Shown: piece after piece, positions 39,397 to 60,904 of the stretch | Position numbering within the stretch: the first letter of the stretch is position 1 | Layout: the number at the start of each line of letters is the position of its first letter | Source: Companilactobacillus kedongensis | GTDB lineage: Bacteria; Bacillota; Bacilli; Lactobacillales; Lactobacillaceae | Assembly: GCF_003946625.1 (NCBI RefSeq) | Contig: NZ_RHOR01000013.1 | Coordinates: 1-64,000, forward strand | Reading direction: 5' to 3' | DNA: 64,000 nucleotides | The notes under the pieces: model-generated | What the model was told of the DNA's origin: nothing | The model's database searches: none | Seen by the model: only the letters and a program-made list of their open reading frames with translations | Translations under genes and position numbers: made by a program

Positions 39397-39542
39397 ACAC
39401 CCCTAAAATAAAGTTTTAGGCATTTTATGCAACATTTTATTATCCTTTAACAAAATATTAGAGGTTTTTTAATAAAAAGTTCTTGTATTTAATGTTTTAT
39501 GGTGTACTCTAATTATTGTGATGCTTTTAGGGAGGTTAAGTA

Positions 39543-41177
39543 ATGAAATTTAAAAAGTATTTGTTAGCACTATTTCCGCTCTTTGCGATAGCGCTGATTT
39601 TGTCTGGCTGCGGTTCTAACACCGAAAAAGATGACAAGAAAACACTTGCCATAAGTTCGAATGATGTTATCGCAACTATGGACTCATCAATGAATACCGA
39701 TGTCATCGGTTCGCAAAATCTATCCAATACAATGGAAGGTTTATACCGATTTGACGGTAAAAAATTGCAGCCAGCTATGGCCAAAAAAATCGTCAAACCA
39801 ACTAATAACGGTAAAACCTACACGATTGAACTGCGACATACCAAATGGTCTAACGGTAAACCCGTAACGGCCCAGGATTTCGTTTACGCATGGCGCAGAA
39901 CTGTTGATCCAAAGACAGCTTCTGAATATGCCTACATTTATAGTGGAATAAAAAATGCTGATAAAATCAGTGCTGGTAAGAAACCAGTTAACACTTTGGG
40001 GATCAAAGCTCTTAATAAATACAAGCTCCAAGTTGATCTAGAAACACCAATTCCATACTTCAATGCTTTGGTGGTAAATTCACCATTCCTACCATTATAT
40101 AAGCCGGCTGTCGAGAAGGCTGGTAAACAATATGGTCTAAAGAGTACTGGTATGGTCTTCAATGGTCCATTTAAGTTAATTAATTGGAACGTTTCTGATA
40201 ATGACTGGACTGAAGTTAAAAATAATAAATATTGGAATGCTAAAAAAGTTAGATTGAATAAGCTTGAATACTACGTTGTTAAAGATGCAAATACTGGTCT
40301 AAATCTTTATGATACTAACCGTATTAATCGTCTCCAACAAATCAGTGGTGATACTGCCCGTCAAGTTTCAAATTATAAAACATTTAGCTCTGAACAGACT
40401 GCAAGTAACTATTATTTGGAATTAAATCAAAAGAAATATAAATTCTTTAGAAATAAGAAGATCAGACAAGCTATTTCAATGTCGATCGACCGTCAACAAT
40501 TAACTCAAAATATCTTAGGTAAGACTGGTGGTATCGAAGATACTTTAGTACCAGAAAAGATGTCTTACAATCCTAAGACTGGTACCGATTTTACTAAGGA
40601 AAAGACCTTAGATTCTGTAAACAAATATTCAGAATATAATCCTAAACTTGCCAAGAAACTTTGGAAAGAAGGAATAAAAGAAACTGGTCAAAAAGATCTC
40701 AGCTTTACTATTTTAGGTGACGATACTGATGCTGCTAAGAAACAAGATGAATTCCTTCAAGGCCAATTAGCAAAGAATTTACCTGGAATCAAAGTTTCCT
40801 TGCAAAATGTTCCATTTAAGTCACGTTTGGATAAATCTATCAGTGGTGACTTTGACATGGTTGTTTCAGCTTGGACAGCTGACTTCCCAGATCCAATCAG
40901 TTTCCTAAGCTGTTTTACATCTGATAGTTCAATTAATGATGGTAAGTATTCTAATAAAGCTTACGATGCCTTAGTTAAGAAGAGTATGACTACTGATGCA
41001 AACAACGAAAGCGCTAGATGGCAAGATATGCTTGATGCAACTAAGATCTTAACTGAAGATCAAGGTGCTGTTGCTCTCTATCAACTTAACCAAGCCAACT
41101 TGACTAAATCTAATGTTAAAAATTATCGTATTTCACCAAATGGCGGCTATAACCTTGTTACCGTCTACAAAAAATAA
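39543..41177 (+). CDS. oppA: Oligopeptide ABC transporter, peptide-binding lipoprotein
   Basis: This 544-aa protein has a lipoprotein signal ending LILSGC (Cys23) and a family 5 solute-binding domain (MEGLYRFDGKKLQPAMAKKIV; KWSNGKPVTAQDFVYAWRR; SAWTADFPDPISFL). It captures peptides at the cell surface. GGGAGGTTAAG precedes the ATG. TTGTAT (39483-39488) with TACTCT 16 bp downstream may be the promoter. It is the first gene of the opp operon. Confidence 0.92.
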   Translation: MKFKKYLLALFPLFAIALILSGCGSNTEKDDKKTLAISSNDVIATMDSSMNTDVIGSQNLSNTMEGLYRFDGKKLQPAMAKKIVKPTNNGKTYTIELRHTKWSNGKPVTAQDFVYAWRRTVDPKTASEYAYIYSGIKNADKISAGKKPVNTLGIKALNKYKLQVDLETPIPYFNALVVNSPFLPLYKPAVEKAGKQYGLKSTGMVFNGPFKLINWNVSDNDWTEVKNNKYWNAKKVRLNKLEYYVVKDANTGLNLYDTNRINRLQQISGDTARQVSNYKTFSSEQTASNYYLELNQKKYKFFRNKKIRQAISMSIDRQQLTQNILGKTGGIEDTLVPEKMSYNPKTGTDFTKEKTLDSVNKYSEYNPKLAKKLWKEGIKETGQKDLSFTILGDDTDAAKKQDEFLQGQLAKNLPGIKVSLQNVPFKSRLDKSISGDFDMVVSAWTADFPDPISFLSCFTSDSSINDGKYSNKAYDALVKKSMTTDANNESARWQDMLDATKILTEDQGAVALYQLNQANLTKSNVKNYRISPNGGYNLVTVYKK

Positions 41178-41198
41178 TTAAAGTTAGGGAGATTAAAT

Positions 41199-42131
41199 AT
41201 GGCAAAATATATTCTTAAAAGAATTCTTTACCTGTTTTTGACCCTATTCATAATTGCTACGATCACCTTCTTTCTAATGAAGATGCTACCTGGTACACCG
41301 TTCTCTAATCAGAACCGTCTTTCACCAGATCAATTAGCAATCGTTAAAGCACAATATGGATTGGATCAACCAATATTTATTCAATATATTCGTTATATAG
41401 GTGGACTATTCCAAGGAAACCTTGGAACTTCATTCCAATTTAATAATGAACCCGTTACACAACTAATTGGCCAACGTTTAGCACCTTCAATGCAAATTGG
41501 TGCTCAAGCTATGATACTTGGAACTATTCTCGGTATCTTGCTCGGTGCCGTTGCTGCCATCAGAAAGAATTCATGGGTCGATACACTAGCAACTTTTGTA
41601 TCAATTCTAGGCATCTCTATTCCTTCATTCGTTTTGGCTGTTTTACTACAATTCTATCTAGCCTACAAATGGCACATCTACCCAGTTGCTCTATGGGATA
41701 ACTTCCAATCAAGTGTTCTACCAACAATTGCTTTAGCTGCGTTACCTTTAGGTAATGTTGCCAGATTTATGAGAACTGAAATGGTTGATGTTTTGAGTAG
41801 TGACTATATCGAGCTTGCTAAGTCAAAAGGTAACTCTGAATGGCAAGTTGTTATCAAACATGCTCTACGTAACTCATTGATCCCAATCGTTACTATTATT
41901 GGACCTATGGCTGTTTCAACTATGACTGGTTCAATGGTTGTCGAGAATATTTTCTCGATCCCCGGTATCGGTGAACAATTCGTTAAATCAATTACAACTA
42001 ATGACTACCCAACTATCATGGGACTAACGATCTTCTATTCATTCTTATTGATTTTAGTCTTCTTAGTTGTTGATATTTTATATGTACTTATTGATCCAAG
42101 AATCAGACTAGGAAATGGAGGTAATGACTAA
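41199..42131 (+). CDS. oppB: Oligopeptide ABC transporter permease
   Basis: This 310-aa permease has six helices. It starts YILKRILYLFLTLFIIATITF and contains the EAA-type loop ELAKSKGNSEWQVVIKHALRNSLIP (about 206-230), the classical OppB pattern. It forms the channel with OppC. It lies 21 bp after oppA and overlaps oppC by one base. Confidence 0.92.
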   Translation: MAKYILKRILYLFLTLFIIATITFFLMKMLPGTPFSNQNRLSPDQLAIVKAQYGLDQPIFIQYIRYIGGLFQGNLGTSFQFNNEPVTQLIGQRLAPSMQIGAQAMILGTILGILLGAVAAIRKNSWVDTLATFVSILGISIPSFVLAVLLQFYLAYKWHIYPVALWDNFQSSVLPTIALAALPLGNVARFMRTEMVDVLSSDYIELAKSKGNSEWQVVIKHALRNSLIPIVTIIGPMAVSTMTGSMVVENIFSIPGIGEQFVKSITTNDYPTIMGLTIFYSFLLILVFLVVDILYVLIDPRIRLGNGGND

Positions 42132-44214: not shown

Positions 44215-45137
44215 TGGCCGAAGATAAAGAAGCAATTGTCCAAGTCAAACATTTAAAACAATATTTCAATATTGGTAAACCTAACGAAGTAAAAGCTGTC
44301 GATGACGTTTCCTTTGATATCTATAAAGGTGAAACTTTTGGGCTAGTTGGTGAATCTGGTTCTGGTAAGAGTACTACCGGACGCAGTATCATCAGACTCT
44401 ATGATCCAACCAGCGGACAAATCTTGTTCAATGGTAAAGATATCAGTAAGATCAAGAGTCATGGTCCACAGATGAAGAAATTCCGCCGTGAAATGCAGAT
44501 GATCTTCCAAGATCCATACGCTTCCTTGAACCCTAGAATGAAGGTCAAAGATATCATCGCCGAAGGCCTTGATGTGCATGGATTAGTCAAGAACGATGAC
44601 GAACGTGACAAACGTGTTCGTGAATTGCTCGATATGGTCCACTTGAATCCAGAACATATGACACGTTACCCATATGAATTCTCTGGTGGTCAAAGACAAC
44701 GTATCGGTATTGCCAGAGCTTTGGCAGTTGATCCCCAATTCATTATCGCTGATGAGCCAATCTCAGCCCTTGACGTGTCGATTCAAGCACAAGTCGTAAA
44801 CCTGATGCAGGACATTCAAAAAGAGCAAGGATTAACTTATATGTTCATTGCCCATGACCTTTCAATGGTTAAATATATCAGTGATAGAATCGCTGTTATG
44901 TACCAAGGAAAAATCGTTGAATTGGCTGATGCCGACGAGATTTACTCTCATCCACTTCATCCATACACGAAGAGTCTACTTTCAGCAATTCCAGTTCCTG
45001 ATCCCGAAATTGAGAAAACTCGTCAAAGAATCGACTTTGACCACAAGAGTTCTTTCCATAAAGGACAAAAATTGCAGGAAGTCATGCCTGGACATTTTCT
45101 ATACTGTGACGACACAAAAGCAGCTACATTTAAATAA
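44214..45137 (+). CDS. oppF: Oligopeptide ABC transporter ATP-binding protein
   Basis: This 307-aa ATPase has Walker A GESGSGKST, signature FSGGQRQRIGIARA and Walker B FIIADEPISALDV, and the Opp-type C-terminal extension with HPYTKSLLSAIP. It is the last gene of the opp operon and is followed by a strong terminator five bases after the stop. Confidence 0.92.
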   Translation: MAEDKEAIVQVKHLKQYFNIGKPNEVKAVDDVSFDIYKGETFGLVGESGSGKSTTGRSIIRLYDPTSGQILFNGKDISKIKSHGPQMKKFRREMQMIFQDPYASLNPRMKVKDIIAEGLDVHGLVKNDDERDKRVRELLDMVHLNPEHMTRYPYEFSGGQRQRIGIARALAVDPQFIIADEPISALDVSIQAQVVNLMQDIQKEQGLTYMFIAHDLSMVKYISDRIAVMYQGKIVELADADEIYSHPLHPYTKSLLSAIPVPDPEIEKTRQRIDFDHKSSFHKGQKLQEVMPGHFLYCDDTKAATFK

Positions 45138-45141
45138 ACCC

Positions 45142-45179
45142 AAAGCGTGTGATCTTAAATTGATCACACGCTTTTTTTG
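45142..45179 (+). terminator. Terminator of the opp operon
   Basis: Perfect 13-bp stem AAAGCGTGTGATC/GATCACACGCTTT with a long T run on the plus strand. Confidence 0.9.
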
Positions 45180-45194
45180 TAATTTAACATACAA

Positions 45195-45389
45195 CACAAA
45201 AAATCCCGCATCGTCTAAAGATGCGAGATTACTTTTTAAAATATATATCTGGGGAGGAAATATATTTTATTCGTATATATAGGGGATTATTTAATTAGGG
45301 GATTAAATAAGGATTTTTCAATTTATGAAGAAAATTTTTTCAGGGATCATTTAGAAACTAGGTCATTCACCTCTTTGCTTTTTGACTAT
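45195..45389 (-). ncRNA. Candidate small RNA A with C-rich loops
   Basis: Read from about 45389 leftward (about 195 nt). Hairpin a: TTATTTAAT-CCCCTA-ATTAAATAA (45310-45287). Hairpin b: AAAATATAT/ATATATTTT with loop TTCCTCCCCAGAT (45268-45238). Terminator: AATCTCGCATC/GATGCGGGATT (45230-45202) followed by TTTTG, where one pair is U-G on this strand but C-A on the other. The C-rich loops are complementary to Shine-Dalgarno sites. A conserved AGAGGTGA near the 5' end is followed by ATG and then an almost immediate stop. Two paralogues follow at 45622 and 45931. Confidence 0.65.
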
Positions 45390-45395
45390 GCTTAA

Positions 45396-45471
45396 ATAAT
45401 AACGTCAAAATATGAAGAGGTTATTTTGAAACTGCGACTAATTAACTAACAATCTGTGAAGAAATTGTGAG
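45396..45471 (-). promoter_or_regulatory. Promoter and phased half-site array of small RNA A
   Basis: -10 TATTAT (45401-45396). Upstream (plus-strand reading) are TATGAA 45411, TGCGAC 45433, TGTGAA 45455 and TGTGAG 45466, at offsets 0, 22, 44 and 55. The same offsets occur in the two paralogues. No good -35 is present, fitting activator dependence. Confidence 0.65.
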
Positions 45472-45477
45472 GTCAGA

Positions 45478-45582
45478 CTATCTATCGATTCCGTATATGC
45501 AATTATTATACGTCCAAGATAAAATATCTTCCATATCGTCAGTATTGTAGTAATTTGAAAGTAATTTATTAAATTGTTCCAT
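45478..45582 (-). CDS. Possible 34-aa peptide
   Basis: An ORF with AAGGAG eight bases upstream of its ATG encodes MEQFNKLLSNYYNTDDMEDI and a further 14 residues with one cysteine. TATACTT (about 45615) could be its -10. It lies between the terminator of small RNA B and the operator array of small RNA A, and it has no counterpart next to the other two units. It is acidic and shows no signal or double-glycine leader, so a bacteriocin is not evident. The function is unknown and the gene might be fortuitous. Confidence 0.4.
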   Translation of the reverse strand: MEQFNKLLSNYYNTDDMEDILSWTYNNCIYGIDR

Positions 45583-45621
45583 TCTCATCACTCCTTATAT
45601 TTCCCGTTACCTTTAAGTATA

Positions 45622-45834
45622 CAAAAAAAGTAAGAACATACCCATGCAGGCAAGTTCTTACTTTCATTCTTGTGAATATATCTGGGGAGGATATATTGTA
45701 ATTGTTTTCTCATATCAGGGATTATTTAATTAGGGGATTAAATTTATAAGTAAAAGTATTTACCTAAGCTTTAACGGAGATTAAAACCTAGAATCTCGTA
45801 TTTCATTCGGTCACCTCTTCTTTGTTTTGACTAT
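45622..45834 (-). ncRNA. Candidate small RNA B with C-rich loops
   Basis: Read from about 45834 leftward (about 210 nt). It shares with RNA A the 5' segment GCATAGTCAAAA..AAGAGGTGA, the ATTTAAT/ATTAAAT hairpin with a CCCCTA loop (45743-45724), and the AATATAT/ATATATT hairpin with loop CCTCCCCAG (45697-45675). The terminator is GTAAGAAC/GTTCTTAC (45661-45630) followed by TTTTTTTG; an inner pair is G-U only on this strand. A mini-ORF of 11 codons (MKYEILGFNLR) follows the AGAGGTGA. Confidence 0.65.
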
Positions 45835-45840
45835 GCTTAA

Positions 45841-45916
45841 ATAATAGCTTTCACCTATGAAGAATTAATTTCTAAACTACGAAAAATTATCAATCAATTT
45901 GTGAAGAATTTGTGAG
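45841..45916 (-). promoter_or_regulatory. Promoter and phased half-site array of small RNA B
   Basis: -10 TATTAT (45846-45841). Half-sites (plus-strand reading) TATGAA 45856, TACGAA 45878, TGTGAA 45900 and TGTGAG 45911 lie at the same 0, 22, 44 and 55 offsets as in units A and C. Confidence 0.7.
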
Positions 45917-45930
45917 GCAATCAATAATTA

Positions 45931-46214
45931 CGCAGAAAAATAGGACCTGCTGTTGGCAGATCCTGTTTTATTTTTAGAAAATATATATCAGGGGGGAAAT
46001 ATATTTTCACTTGTATAATCTCTTATATCAGAGTTATTTAATTGGGGGATTAAATAAGGATTTTGTAGGGATTAAATTTTATAGGGGATTAATCAATTTA
46101 TATTGTATTTATGTAAGTGAGTTTTAAGAAAACATTATCTTGTTTTAAGGGGGATTAAAACTTGATAGGAAGTCTAATATTTCATCCGGTCACCTCTTCT
46201 TTGTTTTTGACTAT
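45931..46214 (-). ncRNA. Candidate small RNA C with C-rich loops
   Basis: Read from about 46214 leftward (about 280 nt); the longest of the three. Hairpins: GTTTTAA-TCCCCC-TTAAAAC (46161-46142); TTATTTAAT-CCCCCA-ATTAAATAA (46057-46034); and AAAATATAT/ATATATTTT with loop TTCCCCCCTGAT (46007-45978). Two further CCCC stretches lie between. Terminator AGGATCTGC/GCAGGTCCT (45964-45942) then ATTTTT; its one wobble is U-G on this strand and C-A on the other. The loop UUCCCCCCU is complementary to the ribosome site of the adjacent plus-strand gene at 46386. Confidence 0.65.
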
Positions 46215-46220
46215 GCTTAA

Positions 46221-46296
46221 ATAATAGCTTTCATTTATGAATAATTAATTGTCAAATTACGAATAAACAAATAATAATTTGTGAAGAAATTGTGAG
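46221..46296 (-). promoter_or_regulatory. Promoter and phased half-site array of small RNA C
   Basis: -10 TATTAT (46226-46221). Half-sites (plus-strand reading) TATGAA 46236, TACGAA 46258, TGTGAA 46280 and TGTGAG 46291: offsets 0, 22, 44 and 55 once more. The outer pair has the 11-bp direct-repeat spacing common for OmpR/PhoB-type response regulators. Confidence 0.7.
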
Positions 46297-46385
46297 GTTC
46301 TCGTAATAATTGAACACTAAATTACAGCGATATTATTATTGGTGTTCTATAATAATGGAGAAAACATCCTTAAGGGGGGAATTTT

Positions 46386-46898
46386 ATGAAATTATCAAAG
46401 GATCAAAAAAGTAACTTAAAATCAGCTATTATAGCTGGAACAATTGCTGGAGTGGCATCTGGCTTTGTTAAACTAGGTTGGGAAAATGTTTTACCACCTA
46501 GAACTGCAGAACGTGACGAAACCAACCCACCTCAGACCCTGCTTCAACAATTCGGTATTCCTAGTAAATGGACACATGCTACTTATACTTACTCTGGACA
46601 TAAATTACCTTGGGTAAGTTACTTAGTTCATTTTGGCTTCTCAACTTCTTTTGCCATCATTTATGAAGTTTTAGCCGAATACAAACCTTTTATCAGAAAA
46701 GGTGCTTGTAGTATTTTTGGATTAGCAATTTGGGCAGCTTTCCATCTTGGAATCATGCCTATGATGAAGACTGTTCCATCAGCCAAAGATCAGCCAACAG
46801 AAGAACATATTTCAGAAGCACTAGGACACATTGCTTGGATGTGGACCAATGACGTTGTTGGGCAAGAATTATATCGTCGTTTAACGTCAAAGAAGTAG
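46386..46898 (+). CDS. YagU-family (DUF1440) membrane protein
   Basis: This 170-aa protein matches YagU: an N-terminal helix after SAIIAGTIAGVASGFVKLGWE, the PPRTAERDETNPPQTLL stretch, then three more helices and a WMWTNDVVGQELYRR tail. E. coli YagU is linked to acid resistance; here the function is untested. The ribosome site is unusually G-rich (AAGGGGGGAA, 46372-46381) and is matched by the loop of the neighbouring small RNA C. TATAAT (46348-46353) may be the -10, flanked by inverted GAACAC/GTGTTC. Confidence 0.8.
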   Translation: MKLSKDQKSNLKSAIIAGTIAGVASGFVKLGWENVLPPRTAERDETNPPQTLLQQFGIPSKWTHATYTYSGHKLPWVSYLVHFGFSTSFAIIYEVLAEYKPFIRKGACSIFGLAIWAAFHLGIMPMMKTVPSAKDQPTEEHISEALGHIAWMWTNDVVGQELYRRLTSKK

Positions 46899-60160: not shown

Positions 60161-60904
60161 CTAGTTTACGTGAACAGCAAATGAAGGCATGAAGTAACTT
60201 GATACTGTGGCAATCTTAACTGAATCACCAGGCTTTGGAGCAGCGATGTATTGGTTGTTACCAAGGTAGATACCTACGTGGTATGTTGAACCTTTGCTAC
60301 CCCAGAATAATAGATCTCCGGCTGAAGCTTGTGATACTGATTCTTGTGTACCGGCACCCTCTTGGGCAACAGTGTATGAACCAATGCTCTTACCTAATGC
60401 TTGTTGGTATACGTATGATGTGAAACCTGAGCAGTCGAAACCACTTGGTGTCTTACCACCCCATACATAAGGTGTACCAATGTATTGTTTTGCAGTACTG
60501 ATAACTGATTCAGCACTTGATTCTGTTGTAGCAGCTTGTGTTGATGAATCGTCAGTTGCTGCATCAGTATTTGTGTCTGTTGAAGCAGTGTTTGTTGTAA
60601 CGTCAGATGCTTGTACCCATGCGTCAGTACCGATGAAGTACCAGATGTTACCTTGGTCATCCATAGCTTCTTGACCTACAGCCCAAGGAGTATTAGCAGC
60701 AATAGCACGTCCTGTTGTGTCACCATCTTTAGAAGGTGTCTTGTAAAGCATTGCAGTCTTGTTAGCAGTAACTACTGAAGGTACATTGTCTGTAATGATT
60801 TGTGTAGCAGCATGTGTTGTTAGACCTGTCATACCTAAACCTGTAACTGCTAATGAAGCAGCGGCTGTAAATGAAATTAGACTCTTTTTAATTTTAGTAT
60901 TCAA
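60161..60904 (-). CDS. Secreted NlpC/P60 peptidoglycan hydrolase with SH3-like domain
   Basis: This 247-aa exported protein has a signal peptide (to about residue 32, ending THAA), an SH3-like segment (about 38-100), a Thr/Ser/Ala-rich linker (about 103-132) and a C-terminal NlpC/P60 domain. The catalytic Cys is in GFDCSGFTSYVYQ, with the His in TYHVGIYLGNN. It should cleave D-Glu-diamino acid bonds in the wall. Upstream are 11-bp-phased TGTAAC-type half-sites like those of WalR. Confidence 0.9.
   Translation of the reverse strand: MNTKIKKSLISFTAAASLAVTGLGMTGLTTHAATQIITDNVPSVVTANKTAMLYKTPSKDGDTTGRAIAANTPWAVGQEAMDDQGNIWYFIGTDAWVQASDVTTNTASTDTNTDAATDDSSTQAATTESSAESVISTAKQYIGTPYVWGGKTPSGFDCSGFTSYVYQQALGKSIGSYTVAQEGAGTQESVSQASAGDLLFWGSKGSTYHVGIYLGNNQYIAAPKPGDSVKIATVSSYFMPSFAVHVN

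Follow-up and report, generated by a model that had tools for sequence, protein, structure and literature searches.

Three side-by-side genes for paralogous small RNAs (sRNAs; family A) span positions 45198-46298, on the minus strand, of the 64,000-nucleotide (nt) stretch of Companilactobacillus kedongensis contig NZ_RHOR01000013.1 that was analysed (the window), beside the peptide-uptake (opp) operon. With a probability of about three in four, these are trans-acting sRNA genes that form a regulon with a second family (family B), are driven by an activator and block Shine-Dalgarno (SD) sequences, the oppB and oppA leaders being the best predicted targets. As far as sequence can tell, the three units are real and part of something larger than had been predicted, a set of C-rich sRNAs in lactobacilli that is defined by its promoter. 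A common promoter architecture, C runs on hairpins or single strands, and intrinsic terminators were found in both families.

The original prediction had described three paralogous minus-strand units, each with a promoter, a conserved 5' segment, hairpins with AU-rich stems and C-rich loops, and a T-run terminator. They were present as described, in the gap between the end of oppF (45137) and the start of a DUF1440 gene (46386). Their elements are listed below (C4+, run of at least four C; ORF, open reading frame; bp, base pairs).

46238-46298, minus: putative activator box of A3, with TTCAYA-type half-sites in 11-bp phase (R1 model 51.6 bits, E 2e-13 genome-wide)
46221-46226, minus: -10 element TATTAT of A3; the proximal half-site TTCATA lies 9 nt upstream
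45936-46215, minus: predicted sRNA A3, ~280 nt (fold z -4.3, terminator called)
46174-46185, minus: mini-ORF MKY* of A3, behind AGAGGTGA
46149-46153, 46084-46087, 46044-46048 and 45991-45996, minus: four C4+ runs of A3
45858-45916, minus: putative activator box of A2 (R1 model 44.2 bits)
45841-45846, minus: -10 element TATTAT of A2
45623-45835, minus: predicted sRNA A2, ~213 nt (fold z -2.9, terminator called)
45771-45806, minus: mini-ORF MKYEILGFNLR* of A2, behind AGAGGTGA
45733-45736 and 45684-45687, minus: two C4+ runs of A2
45413-45472, minus: putative activator box of A1 (R1 model 46.3 bits)
45396-45401, minus: -10 element TATTAT of A1
45198-45390, minus: predicted sRNA A1, ~193 nt (fold z -3.8, terminator called)
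45358-45366, minus: minimal ORF MT* of A1, behind AGAGGTGA
45298-45301, 45282-45285 and 45251-45254, minus: three C4+ runs of A1

RNA lengths were taken from the C of CATAG to the terminator call and were 193, 213 and 280 nt for A1, A2 and A3, close to the roughly 195, 210 and 280 nt that had been predicted. The window contains direct repeats of a 93-nt promoter/5' block (three copies, 80-83% identity) and, round the C-rich loops, of a 32-nt block (three copies) and a 21-nt block (two copies). The sequence TATTATTTAAGCATAGTCAA occurs once per unit on the minus strand (45382-45401, 45827-45846 and 46207-46226).

A profile of the promoter/5' block identified 88 family-A units in 40 loci plus the window. 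Family-A DNA was matched in 35 of 36 Companilactobacillus genomes (all except G007), and Companilactobacillus keshanensis is among the named species with the same units. An exact core pattern was present in 25/26 genomes of the genus versus 2/371 genomes of the taxonomic family outside it. Copy number and length of the units vary between species. Among the loci, which were chosen for having a unit, 34 contain the DUF1440 gene, in each case immediately adjacent to a unit, and in many loci the last unit converges on the opp operon.

Upstream of the family-A units, TTCAYA-like half-sites recur at 11-bp steps in the aligned regions. TTCATA-N9-TATTAT was found exactly in 66/88 units and TTCGTA-N9-TATTAT in 12 more; one promoter subclass is 22 bp shorter with the phase retained, as read from alignments. 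The host of the window (genome G000) consists of 37 contigs, and when it was searched with a sequence model of the family-A box, the top four matches were A1, A2 and A3 plus a copy on contig C2. Weaker matches on contig C35 (E 0.007, 0.03 and 0.23) led to family B. A second box model (A+B) recovered all six window and C35 units; new with it were the promoter of a small messenger RNA (mRNA) on contig C14 (E 2.4e-6) and, on contig C23 (E 0.09), one more candidate for a C-rich RNA. With a relaxed regular expression for the box, 83 sRNA-type and 3 other sites were obtained over 0.91 Mb, in loci mostly chosen for holding units. No regulator was identified; Pfam annotation of neighbours covered seven proteins. 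A histidine-kinase gene in locus L295 lies near a box match at chance level (E 2.3, inside another gene) and was not used as evidence.

Three further sites of G000 were recorded. On C14 (L333; G000:C14:20833-20897, minus), the same box is followed by a CATAGTCAA/AAAGAGGTGA leader and a 33-amino-acid ORF, MKKHPILVLTSLSAVAAVCGKLIKTHNDKKLFN, possibly a small mRNA of the same regulon. On C23 (L337; G000:C23:132945-133003, minus), the RNA behind a TTCACA-N9-TATTAT box has CTCCC and a CCCAACCTTCCCCCCTGATAATTGGG hairpin and may represent a third type of C-rich sRNA. On C2 (L103:1345-1590, minus), a family-A-like unit encodes MKNIKTGTKGLPIGKPFLF..., the frame entering its own terminator.

For structural analysis, terminators were called in 84/88 family-A units and the other 4 were dropped from these counts; fold tests were performed on every third unit with a terminator (28/84). 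The three window units fold with energies below those of dinucleotide shuffles (z values above). At least one C4+ run is present in 82/84 units, with a mean of 3.06 per unit versus 1.61 in shuffled sequences and up to seven per RNA (median RNA length 278 nt). In 80/84 units a C4+ run forms the loop of a perfect, ungapped stem of 6 bp or more; the same criterion gave 4-15/84 after full shuffling and 15-25/84 when the C runs were kept fixed and the rest was shuffled. In the 28 sampled units, 68/91 C4+ runs lay inside local hairpin loops (58/184 in shuffles) and their mean unpaired probability was 0.92 (0.77 in shuffles), so that the exposed C-rich loops of the original prediction were borne out. 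Stems round the UUCCCCG loop show compensatory changes (AGAACUA/UAGUUCU, AGAGUUA/UAACUCU and AUGAGUUA/UAACUCAU; homology assigned by eye).

Family B is a second, shorter C-rich sRNA family with three genes on contig C35 (L298:3210-5045, plus) behind the same kind of box, and it was found in 36/36 genomes of the genus. In G000 the RNA is 94-107 nt long and consists of a 5' hairpin, CUCAUCCCC(CC)UAUAAC, UUUAAUCCCCUA and a terminator with a UUCCCC- or CUCCCC-type loop. The 5' end was not recognised in seven of 65 family-B matches; these were dropped, leaving 58, as was L299, a copy of L298. Over the 58 units the C4+ runs have a mean unpaired probability of 0.98 versus 0.86 in shuffles, the latter being high because G is scarce. 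The family-B model also matches unit A1 at 45238-45317 (E 0.008). Several middle family-B copies, e.g. L310:2700-2800 (minus) and L311:2689-2810 (minus), have no TTCAYA box and carry GGGCTATCC...GATAAGCC upstream (by eye), as if under a different regulator.

The family-B transcript model (R3) is sequence only, without promoter or structure; consensus folding of the MAFFT alignment gave 0 pairs. It matched 31/251 genomes of the taxonomic family, 19 of them in ten other genera. The box was scored as a TTCAYA-type half-site (at most 1 mismatch) 9 nt before a TA...T -10 element plus a phased second half-site. It was carried by 11 of the 18 retrieved other-genus loci, in four genera, versus 0-3/18 at other spacings (5-8 and 10-14) and 0/4792 random windows (overlapping, from flanks of the same loci). 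Since the promoter lies outside the model, the box in other genera is independent evidence. The remaining 7/18 loci look like chance matches.

For target prediction, the single-stranded part of family B was paired with the 57 gene leaders of the window. The leaders and genes concerned are as follows.

41171-41208, plus: oppB leader, best predicted target (TTAGGGAGATTAAATATGG vs UAUUUAAUCCCCUA)
39515-39552, plus: oppA leader, second predicted target (TTTTAGGGAGGTTAAGTAATG)
60161-60904, minus: gene of an NlpC/P60-type secreted hydrolase, TTG start, leader CGGGGGATTTCAATTTTG (PF00877 for the homologue in L057)
46386-46898, plus: DUF1440 gene (Pfam PF07274), divergent from A3, SD TTAAGGGGGGAATTTTATG

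The oppB leader ranked first (-19.4 kcal/mol), and 6/300 shuffled sRNA sets reached as low an energy; oppA ranked second (-19.3 kcal/mol). Across the genus loci, among genes of the same loci, oppB was top in 16/25 and within the top three in 23/25, oppA was within the top three in 11/21 and NlpC/P60 in 13/20. The oppB leader GGGAGATTAAATA(A)TG is nearly invariant, and unit A1 has the same UUAUUUAAUCCCCUAA motif as that used against it. The NlpC/P60 leader CGGGGGATTTCAATT is almost unchanged across the genus, with GGGG in 24/25, and the gene adjoins other family-A units in several relatives; its start in the pairing runs was 3 nt off (60901 vs 60904). Despite this conserved leader it was rejected as prime target, its pairing being no better than that of shuffled sRNAs (twelfth, with 174/300 shuffles as low).

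Several other results weigh against activator-driven, SD-blocking sRNAs with opp targets. The oppA energy was matched by 18/300 shuffled sets; DUF1440 ranked third, but 153/300 shuffles were as low; oppF, oppC and oppD ranked only 24th, 42nd and 47th. When whole RNAs were paired with the 57 leaders, DUF1440 ranked 1st, oppA 3rd, NlpC/P60 34th, and oppB fell outside the top 16. This ranking is dominated by long interrupted duplexes, and the difference means that the target ranking depends on allowing only the single-stranded portion of family B to pair. SD-like GGGGGATT sites were present in 91/91 genomes and all 40 genera of the taxonomic family tested, and exceeded a reversed control in 88/91 (exceptions G036, G098 and G122). 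Co-evolution of G-rich SDs with family A was rejected, as such SDs occur in all 40 genera and so did not arise with family A; they are opportunities for pairing, not proof.

On the side of the units, C4+ runs are missing from 2/84 family-A units and from the C2 copy, to which the second box model gave only E 2.5. The same model matched inside a gene, in antisense (C23:32763, E 0.03), and by regular expression 16/65 family-B matches have no box, a few other matches being misplaced. The strand had originally been argued from imperfect terminator pairs, U-G on the minus and C-A on the plus strand. This held for the terminators as folded (by eye) and failed over whole units, where the sense strand folded better than the antisense strand in only 3/28 family-A and 2/58 family-B units, probably because G runs can form pairs with U as well. 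It is therefore the promoter and the T run that support the strand call.

The conserved 5' segment of family A had been noticed before, and it is present; what had been missed is that this segment forms a good ribosome-binding site and that most units have a mini-ORF after it. An SD-like motif was found in 78/84 units, and an ATG within 14 nt of it in 69, at identical spacing in 58/69. Exactly three codons make up 28/69 mini-ORFs (MKR, MVR, MKY and others). Family A may thus have a ribosome-bound 5' end, perhaps as a stabiliser of the RNA. Chiefly on these counts, family A could be taken for small mRNAs or leader RNAs whose function lies in translation of the mini-ORF or in its peptide, with the C-rich hairpins serving only for tuning. 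Two loci that share the promoter resemble true small mRNAs, namely L333 (33-amino-acid MKKHPILV... behind AAAGAGGTGA) and L103 (AGGAG, then MKNIKTGTKGLP...). However, the mini-ORF peptides are unconserved (2-22 codons), the SD or ATG is absent by pattern search in 15/84 units (one of them, L058, was mis-anchored and counted as a miss although the motif is present) while 80/84 have the hairpin C loop, and no such ORF was seen by eye in family B. We consider this explanation unlikely.

A protein-coding frame as the source of the conservation was likewise checked for the units: no long frame was found, and a coding explanation was rejected, as the mini-ORFs are too variable. Between A2 and A1 (window ~45488-45590, minus) lies a 34-amino-acid ORF with a good SD, MEQFNKLLSNYYNTDDMEDILSWTYNNCIYGIDR. 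As a coding explanation this ORF (MEQFNKLL...) was set aside: it has no Pfam match, and the sister locus L066 contains only a shorter related stretch (by eye). Several family-A RNAs (L051, L055-L057, L068, L076 and others) end in a similar short frame that enters the terminator stem, with the pattern ATGAAAAAT...AAAAGAGCT.GCC....GGC.AGCTCTTTT; elsewhere the frame reads ...LLAGFF. These 3'-end frames could be small peptides or merely a shadow of the terminator stem.

The C-rich loops might instead be a sponge for a protein, e.g. a KH-domain or cold-shock protein, and not antisense seeds. As expected of protein decoys, the C4+ runs are numerous (up to seven per RNA) and alike in kind. We regard a sponge as very unlikely, since the motif extends into UAUUUAAUCCCCUAA, matching the oppB and oppA leaders beyond the G run, and analogous Firmicutes RNAs act by base-pairing (excerpts of PMC4132741 and PMC9217828).

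It is hardly credible that the plus strand is functional as a CsrB/RsmZ-like decoy whose GGGGA/AGGA loops titrate CsrA. The reverse complement does carry many GGGGA loops and the sense strand seldom folds better (3/28, as above), but against the decoy, a search of the genome for CsrA found none (0 matches to PF02599; control positive in 3/14, E. coli, B. subtilis and T. maritima), and the box, the -10 element and the T runs all indicate the minus strand. Equally far-fetched is a functionless, decayed repeat array or promoter debris, with which differing copy number and length between species and some copies without C runs would agree, against conservation in 35/36 (A) and 36/36 (B) genomes, compensatory stems and a spacing-exact promoter that recurs in other genera.

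The interpretation as multi-copy sRNAs with exposed anti-Shine-Dalgarno (anti-SD) loops, of the csRNA/Rsa kind, is supported at the sequence level by genus-wide conservation, loops above shuffles, compensatory stems, the presence in this genome of another csRNA-like family with a promoter of the same type, and the lack of both an Rfam family and a long frame that would explain the conservation. The family had been called unplaceable among known ones, and indeed no Rfam model reached its gathering score in the window, the matches at the units lying far below threshold. Family B also scored below threshold: OrzO-P with 32.7 bits (gathering 60), RsaE/RoxS (RF01820) with 20.9 bits (gathering 79; no match in the window) and FsrA (RF02273), its best Rfam match by E-value, with 27.9 bits (E 0.004, gathering 80). 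LhrC was not among the matches up to E 5 in window positions 44900-46700 or up to E 2 in L298 3180-5080. By anatomy the RNAs look like analogues of csRNAs, LhrC and RsaE, while by sequence they would belong to none of the families tested.

FsrA of Bacillus subtilis resembles family B in its 5' hairpin, C-rich single strand and C-rich terminator loop. FsrA is Fur-controlled; a phased-repeat promoter is found here. The csRNAs are defined by C-rich motifs that cover SDs. An exposed C-rich motif of this type is present here, with SD complementarity by prediction. Both are also sets of short RNAs in multiple copies, with direct repeats immediately before the -10 element through which activation occurs in csRNAs and is predicted here. 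In contrast to csRNAs, family A is longer (median as above) and has a 5' mini-ORF, and the box is TTCACA/TTCATA-type, in 11-bp phase over up to five turns at spacing 9; the CiaRH geometry used for csRNA searches in Streptococcus is TTTAAG-N5-TTTAAG-N10-TATAAT, and Lactobacillus is reported to lack CiaH homologues (excerpts of PMC3091779).

LhrC1-5 of Listeria are likewise multi-copy with exposed C-rich motifs; by pairing energy oppA ranks second of 57 leaders here, at a level that 18/300 shuffled sets also reach. Excerpts of PMC4132741 and PMC5880928 describe control of LhrC by the two-component system LisRK and three redundant CU-rich motifs (stem-loop, single strand and terminator), and those of the latter name oppA as a known, repressed target. 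As of 2014 the LisR consensus was not known (excerpts of PMC4132741), so the box is not comparable with LisR sites. RsaE/RoxS is similar in its UCCCC motifs and in an opp-gene target and response-regulator control, the latter two predicted here; RoxS/RsaE is driven by ResD/SrrA (excerpts of PMC4409812), and in S. aureus RsaE is known to pair with opp3B (excerpts of PMC9217828). No sRNA of this type for lactobacilli was found among the literature matches listed, which leave subscription papers mostly uncovered; in a lactococcal sRNA paper (PMC13109727), the available main text contained neither 'C-rich' nor 'UCCC' in a term search.

For the preferred reading, a response regulator of the OmpR/PhoB family would bind the phased half-sites and switch the RNAs on. 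Their exposed UCCCC(C) would then pair with G-rich SDs and block ribosome binding, as for csRNAs, LhrC and RsaE/RoxS. Firing of the sensor would likely reduce oligopeptide import, given that oppB and oppA are the best predicted targets, and perhaps the number of secreted wall proteins with GGGGG-type SDs. More weakly suggested, the 5' SD and mini-ORF would seat a ribosome at the 5' end of family A and could protect it from 5' exonuclease. A more elaborate scheme, tentative and rather unlikely as a whole, would be a two-tier Lactobacillaceae regulon driven by a response regulator. Here short, csRNA-like family-B and long, ribosome-associated family-A RNAs would share their target mRNAs, those for peptide uptake and surface proteins, and the three-codon ORF would park or recycle a ribosome, stabilising or timing an RNA with up to seven anti-SD motifs.

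Food use of lactobacilli is widespread, and these results suggest that such bacteria possess sRNA switches of their own, comparable to those described in streptococci, Listeria and staphylococci. The promoter signature, the distribution of both RNA families and the predicted targets together allow the regulator to be searched for by its box and the link to peptide uptake to be tested. The findings further suggest that C-rich RNAs under response-regulator control, acting to restrain opp expression, may have been built separately in different Firmicute lineages.

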